A stretch of DNA of 64,000 nt. It comes from an uncultured Bacteroidia bacterium. Lineage in GTDB: Bacteria > Bacteroidota > Bacteroidia > J057 > CALAJH01. The position numbers and the translations under genes are program-made. Positions within the stretch are counted from its first letter, which is position 1. The number at the start of each line of letters is the position of its first letter. The stretch lies in assembly GCA_937922655.1 (NCBI GenBank), contig CALAJH010000016.1, positions 30,326-94,325 of the forward strand, written 5' to 3'. A model generated the notes under the pieces. It searched no databases, was not told where the DNA came from, and was given only the letters and a program-made list of their open reading frames with translations. Shown in pieces: positions 38,741 through 43,272 of the stretch.

Positions 38741-39757
38741 TTAGGCGAAAAGTTTGACGTGCGGAACGTGGTCTTGGTGGCCGTGCGCCGGGAGGTCGGG
38801 CGCTTGGAGAAGACCGTGTTTGACCATCCATTCGTCGTCAAAAATTTTGGAAAGGTATTTTGAGCCGTGGTCGGCACACAAAACCACGGCCACGTCGCCG
38901 GGGGCGAGGGGGAGGTGCATGGCGGCAAAGGTCGCGGCGCCGCTTGTCCATCCGACGAATATCCCCTCTTCGCGGGCGAGGCGACGGGCGGTCATGGCGC
39001 CGTCGTAGTCGCCGACTTTGACGACCGCGTCGATGACCTCGGGTTTGTAGTTGCCGGGGCGGTTGTCGCGGCCCATGCCCTCGGTGAGGTAGGGCCGAAC
39101 TTCGTCGGGGTCGATTTCGCCGGTTTCGTGCAGTTTTTTGAGAATCGAGCCGGCGCCGTCCACACCTACCACTTTGATTTTCGGATTTTGACTTTTAAGA
39201 AACGCCGCCGCGCCGCACAACGTGCCGCAACTGCCCATCGCCGCCACAAACGTCGTAATTTTTCCCTCGGTCTGCTCCCAAATTTCGGGCCCCAAGCTTT
39301 CAAAATGTGCCTCGCCGTTGATAGGGTTGTCGTATTGGTTGAGCAGAACGGAGTTGGGCGTTCGGGCGTGAATCGCTTTGGCGACCGACTGGTACGACTC
39401 GGGGTGGGCCGCCGGCACGTCCGAACGGCACAATACCACCTCGGCGCCCAAGGCACGCATCGCCGCCACTTTTTCTTTCGCTTGTTTGTCTTTGGTCGTC
39501 AAAATGCACCGGTAGCCCCGTTTGGCCGCGACCATCGCCACCGAAAAGCCCGTGTTTCCCGAAGTGCATTCGACTATCGTGCCGCCCGGGCGAAGCTTGC
39601 CGCTCTTTTCCGCTTCCGCAATCATTCGCACGGCGATTCTGTCTTTGACGCTTAAACCGGGGTTGAAACTTTCAAGTTTCAGGTATATCGGACGTGTGCC
39701 CAAGCGGACGAGCGGCGTTTCGCCTATAGTCTCCAATATCGAACCAAAATATCGCAT
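38741..39757 (-). CDS. PLP-dependent cysteine synthase family protein
   Basis: LETIGETPLVRL..LKLESFNPGLSVKDRIAVRMI..TSGNTGFSVAMVAAKRGYRC..GSCGTLCGAAAFLK. Confidence 0.92.
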   Translation of the reverse strand: MRYFGSILETIGETPLVRLGTRPIYLKLESFNPGLSVKDRIAVRMIAEAEKSGKLRPGGTIVECTSGNTGFSVAMVAAKRGYRCILTTKDKQAKEKVAAMRALGAEVVLCRSDVPAAHPESYQSVAKAIHARTPNSVLLNQYDNPINGEAHFESLGPEIWEQTEGKITTFVAAMGSCGTLCGAAAFLKSQNPKIKVVGVDGAGSILKKLHETGEIDPDEVRPYLTEGMGRDNRPGNYKPEVIDAVVKVGDYDGAMTARRLAREEGIFVGWTSGAATFAAMHLPLAPGDVAVVLCADHGSKYLSKIFDDEWMVKHGLLQAPDLPAHGHQDHVPHVKLFA

Positions 39758-40096: not shown

Positions 40097-41224
40097 GTGA
40101 ATTCGTCGAATCTCATGAACGATAATTTTATTGTCATCGCGGTCGTATTGATATTGTTGATTTTAGGCTATTTGATGGGGCGAGAGTTCTTTTTTTATCT
40201 AAAAGAGAGAAAAAGCAAGTTACCCAAGGGAACCGAGGAAAAAAAGACGCCTTTGGAGAACGTTGCTTTCAAAAAAGAATCCAAAAATCAAGGCGACAAT
40301 GTACTTCCTGCCAAATCCCCGGACACTTCCAACGACCTTTTGGAATTGAAGACAAAGGCCGAGGAACGCATTCAAAAATTGGAACTGGAAAACAAAAAAC
40401 TCTACGACGAACTTTATGCGCTAAAAAACAATTTGGAGTGGCAAGAAAGGAAAATCGGACAACTAAACCAACAATTGGAACGGGAAAAAAACAAACCAAT
40501 TACCGTTGCCGATGACGAACAAAAAAAACAAAGAATAGAAATTCGCGAACTTAAACACAAGAACGATGAATTGCAGACGAAGTTGGCAAATACCGAAGAA
40601 ATACTGCATAAACTCCAAGAAAAAAACGACGATTTCAATATCATTTTCGCACTTTACGAACGACTTAGAAACCGAAGAAAAATAAACGAACTTCAATTTC
40701 AGGAGTTCATCAAAGCTAAAAACATATTTCGTTTGTTTCACGTTACGGAACGCGCAAACCTTGGTACCATCAAAAAATACGGCTTGCTTTCTTGGCATTT
40801 TATCGAAGAACAACGCTTGTTTACACCCGAATATGTTACCGATAGGACCTCAAAGGAATTGGACTATCGTTACAACCTTCAAGATTATGTAAGGTTGAGT
40901 TTTACGGAAAACATCCCCATGATGCACGTCAAACTCAGGGAAGGGGTCGCAAAGGATTTGGTTGTATTGTACATAGACAAGGTGGTGATGCTTTGGCAGG
41001 ATACCTTGTTTTGCGATAGAAACGCCACCGCAAACGATGCAAAATTTGGCGAAGCCTTCGATGACTTAACAAATATTCGCTTTAACATCGTATTGGGAAA
41101 AACCCCTTACTACGAGCTAAGCGAAGTCGATAAAGCGTATTATCAAGCCGAGGTAATGGTCAAAACACACATTCCTAGAAAATACATTCTTAATCTAGAA
41201 AGTCCAAAGGATTTCAAAAGATGA
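40097..41224 (+). CDS. Membrane-anchored coiled-coil protein with C-terminal DarT-like (DUF4433) ADP-ribosyltransferase domain
   Basis: N-terminal TM NFIVIAVVLILLILGYLMG; coiled coil; C-terminal IFRLFHVTERANLGTIKKYGLLSWH...LQDYVRLSFTENIPMMHV...DLVVLYIDK...LFCDRNATANDAKFGEAFDDLTNIRFNIV...YYQAEVMVKTHIPRKYI matches DarT motif order. GTG 40097 or ATG 40115. Confidence 0.75.
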   Translation: MNSSNLMNDNFIVIAVVLILLILGYLMGREFFFYLKERKSKLPKGTEEKKTPLENVAFKKESKNQGDNVLPAKSPDTSNDLLELKTKAEERIQKLELENKKLYDELYALKNNLEWQERKIGQLNQQLEREKNKPITVADDEQKKQRIEIRELKHKNDELQTKLANTEEILHKLQEKNDDFNIIFALYERLRNRRKINELQFQEFIKAKNIFRLFHVTERANLGTIKKYGLLSWHFIEEQRLFTPEYVTDRTSKELDYRYNLQDYVRLSFTENIPMMHVKLREGVAKDLVVLYIDKVVMLWQDTLFCDRNATANDAKFGEAFDDLTNIRFNIVLGKTPYYELSEVDKAYYQAEVMVKTHIPRKYILNLESPKDFKR

Positions 41225-43272
41225 CGCGTGTTTTTTGGGAAAAGTATGCCGGGTGGATTTTGGGATTGTCGGCGTTTTTGGCGTATGCCAACACCATTCC
41301 CAACGACTTTGCCGTCGACGACGGGATGGTTGTCACTCAAAACAAATACACCCAAAAAGGGTTTGCAGGTATTGGGGATTTGCTTATGCGCGAAAGCACC
41401 CACGGCTGGCGCGGCGACAACAACAAAGGATTTTTGGGTTATTATCGTCCGTTGTCCCTTGTAACTTTTGCCGTCGAATGGCAATTCTTTAAAGGCAATC
41501 CACACGTCGGGCATTTTGTGAACGTCCTGCTTTTCGGATTGACCGTCGTTTTGTTGTTCGATATTTTATATAAACACGTCTTTAAAAATCACGCGCTTTC
41601 CGCCGCCGTTGCACTGCTCTTTGCGGTGCATCCCATACATACGGAAGTGGTGGCGAATATTAAAAGCCGCGATGAAATTATGGCCCTGCTTTTTTCTTTG
41701 TCGTCGTTAAAATTGTTGTTTTCCGCTTTTGAAACGAACAAAAAAAGTCGAATATATTTTGCGGGCATGGTTTATTTTTTGGCGTTGATGTCCAAAGAAA
41801 ACTCGATAACGATGTTGGCCGTATTTCCGATGGGATTGTATCTGTTTGCCTCGACGAAAAAAAACAAAACCGAACTCCCGATAAATCTTAAAACAATATT
41901 TCAAAGTCTCATCCCTGTTTTTGTGGCGGCGGCGTTGTTTTTGGTTTTAAGGTTTGTCATAACCCAAGGGGGATTGACCAATCCTTCCGGCGACTTACTG
42001 CTCAATCGATTCGGAGATTCCAATTTTAATCAAAAGTACGCAACCATCGGCGTAATTTTACTAAAATATTTGCAACTTCTTTTCTTTCCCCATCCCTTGT
42101 CTTGGGATTATTCTTATGCACAGATACCTTTTTATACGTTTAAGGACGGACTTCCATGGCTGGGATACGGATTGTATTCGGCGATACTTCTTGCGGGTTT
42201 ATGGGCCTTGAAAAAGAAAAGTTCTTGGGCTTTTCCGGCGTTGTATTTTCTTGCTACGTTAAGTTTGGCGTCGGGAATATTCGTGGACATCGGCGGATTT
42301 GTGGGTGAAAGATTTTTGTATGCCCCGTCGTTGGCATGGTGTATGGCGGCGGGAATGGCCATGTTTTTATTGCCGAAACCCGCATTGTCTTGGACGGTTT
42401 GCGTCGTCGTTTGTCTGCCGTTTGTGGCCAAAACCGTTCATCGAAACTCGCAATGGAAGGACAGCGAAACGCTTTTTCGCGCGGACTTGAATTCGGCGCC
42501 GAACAGTGCGGTCGTCAATGCGTCGGCCGCCAGCGGATACATCAAACTCGCCCGCCAAACCCAAGACCCAAAACTCAAAAAACAATATTTCGACAAGGCC
42601 GTCGAACTCAACCTCAAAGCCCATGCCATTTACGACAATTACGCCAATCCCTTGATTGACATTGGTTTTGTTTACATCCTTCAAAACGACTACGAAAAAG
42701 CCAAAGAATATCTTTTGCGGGCCAAAAAAATTCATTATCTGCATCCCACGTTGAATCAACAGTTTGCGACTTTGGCCAACAAACATTTGGAGTTTGCCAA
42801 CCAAGCCTATGCCTCGGAAAAGTGGGAAGAGTACGTTAAACATTCGGACGAGGCGGCCAAATTCGCGGCGTATACGCGCGAGGGAAGATTGGACCCGCCC
42901 TATACTCCCACCGACGCCGAAATTTATATGAAAATGGCGGTTTGGTTCGTTTCGCAAGGTCGATACGACGAGGCTTTCGACCGCATCGACCGTTCTTTGG
43001 CCGTCCTTCCCGTCGCAAACAATTACTTTTACGCGGGGGAATTAAAGCTCAAACGGGCCGATTATTCGGGGGCGGAAAAGTATTTTAAATCCGGATTGGC
43101 GTTGAACGGAGGCGTTGCCGAAGCGTGGTATATGTACGGTTTCGCGCTTTTTCAGCAGCAAAAATGGAATGAATCCATTTTTGCTTGGAAACGCGCTTTG
43201 CAACTCAAACCCGGCATGACCGAAGCCCAAAAAGCTTTGGAAAACGCCGAAAAACAAGCCTTAAAGCCTTGA
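41221..43272 (+). CDS. TMTC/GT39-like multipass membrane protein with C-terminal TPRs
   Basis: NTIPNDFAVDDGMVVTQNKYTQKG...ALLFAVHPIHTEVVANIKSRDEIMALLF...LALMSKENSITMLAVFP; C-terminal TPRs. ATGA overlap with the upstream gene. Confidence 0.82.
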   Translation: MTRVFWEKYAGWILGLSAFLAYANTIPNDFAVDDGMVVTQNKYTQKGFAGIGDLLMRESTHGWRGDNNKGFLGYYRPLSLVTFAVEWQFFKGNPHVGHFVNVLLFGLTVVLLFDILYKHVFKNHALSAAVALLFAVHPIHTEVVANIKSRDEIMALLFSLSSLKLLFSAFETNKKSRIYFAGMVYFLALMSKENSITMLAVFPMGLYLFASTKKNKTELPINLKTIFQSLIPVFVAAALFLVLRFVITQGGLTNPSGDLLLNRFGDSNFNQKYATIGVILLKYLQLLFFPHPLSWDYSYAQIPFYTFKDGLPWLGYGLYSAILLAGLWALKKKSSWAFPALYFLATLSLASGIFVDIGGFVGERFLYAPSLAWCMAAGMAMFLLPKPALSWTVCVVVCLPFVAKTVHRNSQWKDSETLFRADLNSAPNSAVVNASAASGYIKLARQTQDPKLKKQYFDKAVELNLKAHAIYDNYANPLIDIGFVYILQNDYEKAKEYLLRAKKIHYLHPTLNQQFATLANKHLEFANQAYASEKWEEYVKHSDEAAKFAAYTREGRLDPPYTPTDAEIYMKMAVWFVSQGRYDEAFDRIDRSLAVLPVANNYFYAGELKLKRADYSGAEKYFKSGLALNGGVAEAWYMYGFALFQQQKWNESIFAWKRALQLKPGMTEAQKALENAEKQALKP

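Follow-up and report, generated by a model that had tools for sequence, protein, structure and literature searches.

Two DarT-based systems are the closest described relatives of the locus analysed here. In DarTG1 of E. coli C7, the toxin DarT1 is paired with a NADAR protein; H17 of DarT1 contacts the NAD+ ribose, D54 and E152 are catalytic, N104 coordinates the base and R52 abstracts a proton, while NADAR catalysis requires E88, K95 and D171 (C7 numbering), and non-cognate NADARs rescue DarT1 toxicity (PMC11543638). In DarTG2, represented in Thermus, Thermosipho and M. tuberculosis, DarT2 is paired with the macrodomain protein DarG. DarT, the NADAR fold and transmembrane (TM) anchors are each already known or visible in databases. 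We analysed a stretch of 64,000 nucleotides from an uncultured Bacteroidia bacterium (the window), in which a preliminary description had noted a membrane-anchored, coiled-coil DarT-like protein. Our preferred reading, to which we give a probability of roughly 0.58, is that this protein is a membrane-tethered DarT1-like DNA (probably guanine) ADP-ribosyltransferase of the phage-defence type, restrained in trans by an unlinked DUF6939 protein. The features of the locus, in window positions, are:

38741..39757, minus strand: presumed cysteine-synthase-like (cysK-like) gene, divergent, upstream of DarT (translation; context only)
40097..41224, plus strand: ORF with TM helix, coiled coil and DarT domain (translation; PF14487, E=3.5e-23; GTG at 40097, likelier ATG at 40115)
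40124..40180, plus strand: predicted N-terminal TM helix, aa 10-28 (hydropathy; helix 4-41 in the AlphaFold model)
40325..40663, plus strand: coiled coil, aa 77-189, about 110 aa in two long helices (heptad test; model)
40736..41194, plus strand: DarT ADP-ribosyltransferase domain, about aa 214-366 (PF14487; Foldseek; family profile to 8baq)
40739..40741, plus strand: His215, equivalent to C7 DarT1 H17 (alignment; roles from PMC11543638)
40853..40864, plus strand: Lys253 to Asp256, at the positions of C7 DarT1 R52 and D54 (alignment; Asp invariant)
41021..41023, plus strand: Asn309, equivalent to C7 DarT1 N104 (alignment; PMC11543638)
41150..41152, plus strand: codon of the putative catalytic Glu352, equivalent to C7 DarT1 E152 and to E160 in T. 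aquaticus (alignment)
41221..43272, plus strand: PMT/TMTC-like membrane glycosyltransferase with TPRs, downstream of DarT (context only)

The DarT frame is intact and encodes 375 aa counted from the GTG; we favour the in-frame ATG (369 aa) as the start, since the TM helix then opens the protein, as in a relative from Fibrella rubiginis. Upstream, the divergent gene that we take from its sequence to be cysteine-synthase-like begins at 39757, leaving an intergenic stretch of about 340 nt where a leader of about 120 nt had been described; promoter-like sites upstream of DarT were no more frequent than in shuffled sequence. The flanks are AT-rich, as first noted: GC content is 36-40% around 39.6-41.1 kb, compared with 52.6% over the whole window, and the DarT gene itself (38.8% GC) lies in this local patch. 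Downstream, the PMT/TMTC-like gene overlaps the DarT stop by 4 bp, so that DarT seems to lead a pair of overlapping genes. This downstream gene encodes a membrane glycosyltransferase with TPRs and is not an antitoxin, and its many paralogues across the order made its synteny unusable for finding an empty site. No hydrolase gene was found among the neighbours of DarT, and a search beside it for a hidden small antitoxin ORF or RNA returned just tiny or antisense ORFs and no Rfam match.

Residues 10-28 form the sole strongly hydrophobic segment of the DarT ORF (mean hydropathy 2.66), in agreement with the single TM helix first proposed. Directly after this helix comes the basic sequence KERKSK, so by the positive-inside rule everything C-terminal to the helix is predicted to be cytoplasmic. 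The coiled coil, previously put at about 100 aa, was likewise recovered: none of 500 shuffled sequences reached the heptad score of residues 77-189, and the AlphaFold model places helices at 77-131 and 135-189 within this region.

The C-terminal domain matches the Pfam DarT family PF14487 with 82.8 bits (E=3.5e-23; curated cut-off 22.5), and all of the DarT motifs listed in the preliminary description are present. In the DarT region the AlphaFold model includes confident blocks, and a Foldseek search of this model against the PDB gave seven significant matches, all of them solved DarTs of the DarT1 and DarT2 types, with an E-value of about 1e-6 to the DarT2 fold. By family profile, the best PDB match is the C7 DarT1 structure 8baq (9.7e-12), ahead of the DarT2 structures 7omu (8.7e-8) and 7omv (0.013). 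The NCBIfam equivalog NF048013 (toxin_DarT) scored 41.1 bits and missed its required cut-off of 150; the protein is therefore a divergent relative rather than the same protein as characterised DarT.

We aligned the domain with its relatives (16 rows) and transferred residue roles from C7 DarT1. H17, T19, D54, M71, N104 and E152 of C7 DarT1 correspond to H215, T217, D256, M275, N309 and E352 of the window protein, and all six are invariant in the alignment, including the glutamate whose codon had been marked as a candidate catalytic position. The position of R52 holds K253, and K or R occurs there in most relatives; this assignment is doubtful by one residue. The protein thus has the DarT1-type extra Asp (D256) and base-coordinating Asn (N309). 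An Asn at the latter position also occurs in macrodomain-paired DarTs (L007, L009, 7omu), so we did not accept N309 alone as proof of guanine specificity, which would rest mainly on D256 and a NADAR-like partner. The window protein is a member of a Bacteroidota DarT1-like subfamily and not a macrodomain (DarG)-type DarT. Within the tree its branch is long (1.84 against a median of 0.27), and it differs at 12 of 59 well conserved columns; the window DarT may therefore be altered or decaying.

A single-sequence pattern search found no close relatives in viral or genome contigs, while an alignment query recovered the subfamily at 21 Bacteroidota loci in a scan of a genome collection. In all 21 a DUF6939 (PF22075) gene is the immediate neighbour of DarT, whether upstream or downstream, and often overlaps it; because near-identical copies of one element recur (L016-L018; L020, L023 and L024), the independent cases are fewer, about 15. 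DUF6939 likewise adjoins DarT at two further loci (L063 and L068). The relative at L077 has no DUF6939, and an ADP-ribosylglycohydrolase (PF03747, 8e-44) stands in its cluster instead. This enzyme family takes the place of a macrodomain, NADAR or DUF6939 as the local DarT partner at both L077:7520-13599 and L072:1504-3404. At another locus (L022:1-3595), about 0.9 kb separates two different DarT domains of the window's subfamily, and a single DUF6939 follows the second.

Several comparisons bear on what DUF6939 is. A model of the Fibrella DUF6939 gave one convincing PDB match, the DarT1-associated NADAR of G. lovleyi (8bat; probability 1.00, E 1.2e-3), and the P. distasonis DUF6939 matched the NADAR-DarT1 profile at 1e-5 with 25.6 bits, just below the cut-off of 27. 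DUF6939 residues E82, K89 and D178 are invariant, with a Glu-Lys spacing of seven residues, and match NADAR E88, K95 and D171; hhalign aligns the two families at the E and K positions. We therefore interpret DUF6939 as most probably a NADAR-superfamily antitoxin. We found no paper on DUF6939 in the literature searched; nor did we find there a description of its partnership with DarT, of membrane-linked DarT contexts or of an unlinked pair.

The window locus is the one exception, a subfamily DarT with no adjacent hydrolase. The absence of DarG from the window, stated earlier, extends to the whole 3.58-Mb draft genome (84 contigs, estimated 100% complete): it gave no match to the macrodomain PF01661, which control genomes did contain, and none to canonical NADAR (PF08719). 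The genome carries one DarT (PF14487) and exactly one DUF6939 (4.5e-60), the latter on a different contig. This DUF6939 is 43-50% identical to DarT-paired copies and keeps E82, K89 and D178; against the NADAR-DarT1 profile it scored 11.1 bits, below the cut-off of 27. It is flanked by what we take to be a gene for a fur-like regulator on one side and one for a secreted protein on the other. DarT lies at 70.4 of 94.3 kb on its contig (C16) and DUF6939 at 93.6 of 195 kb on the other (C11), both amid housekeeping-like flanks, and the two contigs share the same tetranucleotide signature. With both genes this far from contig ends and with matching signatures, the separation does not reflect a contig break. 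Of 396 Bacteroidota genomes, four (about 1%) have a DarT match and four a DUF6939 match, so finding both in one genome is unlikely by chance, which suggests that the two form a working pair. In a co-phylogeny both proteins have long branches and this DUF6939 shows no clear grouping with DarT-paired copies. DUF6939 genes also occur without DarT, so this copy may serve something other than DarT.

The preliminary description had combined the anchor with the lack of DarG to propose a different control mode or a non-toxic role. The DarT domain, the anchor and the absence of DarG all hold, but they do not support the conclusion as it was drawn, since the expected partner of this subfamily is DUF6939 rather than DarG and the genome has an unlinked DUF6939 of its own. 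Moreover, some TM-anchored DarTs have an ordinary antitoxin gene next to them: DUF6939 in Fibrella (L015, TM helix and coiled coil) and Rikenellaceae (L028, TM helix), and a macrodomain on a Klebsiella plasmid (L009) and at L071. A DarT can thus be anchored without having lost its antitoxin: the two traits are separate, and membrane anchoring is a recurrent one. The full TM, coiled-coil and DarT architecture recurs in Fibrella rubiginis (L015), whose DarT domain is 45% identical to the window's and whose DUF6939 gene overlaps the toxin gene. Many relatives have no hydrophobic segment.

Coiled-coil DarTs that lack a TM helix of their own share operons with genes for membrane proteins resembling ZorA/MotA and ZorB/MotB-OmpA (ZorB models to 1.4e-17, ZorA weak), and are apparently tied to the membrane through these partners. 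At L016:5299-9421, four genes encode a coiled-coil DarT, an adjacent DUF6939, a ZorA/MotA-like multi-TM protein and a ZorB/MotB-OmpA-like protein; the cluster also occurs at L004, L018, L019, L021, L031, L033, L034 and L063. Its composition suggests a membrane system of the Zorya kind in which DarT is the effector, and we found no paper on it in the literature searched. A further arrangement, at L035:3447-8231, comprises a kinase with STK and LRR domains, DUF6939, a DarT fused to a TerY/vWA domain and a PP2C-like protein, and the DarT-TerY fusion with DUF6939 is also present at L020, L023-L027, L029, L030, L032 and L068. We read this cluster as a putative TerY-type triad whose effector is DarT. 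The proteins of the window and Fibrella may represent the form in which the membrane tether is built into the toxin itself.

Compared with DarTG1, then, the window system shares the DarT fold, the active-site set with the extra Asp, the best PDB match of the family profile and a family partner that is a NADAR-fold hydrolase with catalytic E, K and D; it differs in the added TM helix and coiled coil, and in a partner that belongs to DUF6939 and is not adjacent. With DarTG2 it shares the DarT fold, and TM-anchored examples exist there too (L009, L071), but the window genome has no macrodomain and the profile similarity is lower than to DarT1.

In the reading we prefer, the N-terminal helix would anchor the protein in the inner membrane and the coiled coil would oligomerise it or space the DarT domain off the membrane. 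Facing the cytoplasm, the DarT domain would use NAD+ to ADP-ribosylate a base of exposed DNA, probably guanine. When triggered, it would stop phage DNA replication or the growth of the cell itself, by analogy with characterised DarTG, and the stand-alone DUF6939 on the other contig would probably reverse the modification in trans. Such neutralisation is plausible because non-cognate NADARs rescue DarT1 (PMC11543638). A more specific form of this proposal is possible but tentative: a DarT without a cis antitoxin, licensed by an unlinked member of a new NADAR-superfamily antitoxin family, would act mainly near the membrane, for example on phage DNA entering the cell, with the chromosome protected by the diffusible hydrolase.

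Other readings take the missing cis antitoxin, the remaining oddity of the locus, as their starting point. A solitary DarT that is non-toxic or weakly active, perhaps regulatory (for example marking DNA at the membrane), would need no antitoxin, which fits the absence of an adjacent hydrolase and of Macro and NADAR matches in the genome, the long branch with its 12 departures from conserved columns, and the K at the R52 position. We consider it unlikely: every invariant active-site position is kept, E352 included, a K at the R52 position also occurs in paired and presumably toxic relatives (Fibrella L015 and L025-L030), and a candidate hydrolase exists in trans. The long branch, the column departures and the low GC content are also compatible with a decaying or weakened orphan, recently acquired, stripped of its antitoxin and poorly expressed, with no current function. 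The unusual lack of a cis antitoxin and the absence of any relative found in the other 21 genomes of the order point the same way, yet the frame is intact with its TM helix, coiled coil and all invariant active-site residues, and DarT heads an apparent overlapping gene pair; on balance this seems quite improbable.

If the hydrophobic N-terminal segment were a signal, the protein might be an exported or cell-surface ADP-ribosyltransferase effector. The basic residues right after the helix predict a cytoplasmic remainder, the NADAR-like hydrolase that partners the family has no signal, and the segment is missing from many relatives, so that we regard export as very improbable. Hardly any weight falls on an assembly or binning artefact, in which toxin and DUF6939 are truly adjacent or one of the contigs does not belong to this genome: although the assembly is an 84-contig draft, both genes lie deep inside long contigs with housekeeping-like flanks and the same tetranucleotide signature.

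If the preferred reading is right, DarT defence extends beyond two-gene cytoplasmic modules: DarT may be held at the membrane by a helix of its own or be associated with ZorA/ZorB-like or TerY-type partners, and the reversing enzyme would be exchangeable (NADAR-like DUF6939, macrodomain or ADP-ribosylglycohydrolase) and, here, genetically separated. DUF6939 would also gain a testable role, as a guanine-ADP-ribose hydrolase antitoxin.

The stand-alone layout of the window genome's DUF6939 has counterparts elsewhere, in DUF6939 genes with no DarT next to them (L036, L037, L061, L062, L064 and L074-L076). At L036:1-3501 and L037, DUF6939 lies beside genes for a canonical NADAR, a sirtuin-like protein and a phosphatase, with an ADP-ribosylglycohydrolase also present at L036; this neighbourhood is possibly an ADP-ribose repair cluster, and neither of the two genomes yielded a DarT of the window's subfamily. 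No DarT match was found in INPHARED phage genomes, and four viral contigs (L061, L062, L064 and L065) carry a stand-alone DUF6939 with no DarT. These viral DUF6939s are candidate phage-borne antitoxin mimics against DarT-DUF6939 defence. DUF6939 also occurs without DarT on plasmids (L074-L076); on one of these, a Bartonella plasmid (L076:428-3995), it lies two genes downstream of a gene for an RHS-repeat protein and may confer immunity to an ADP-ribosylating RHS tip.
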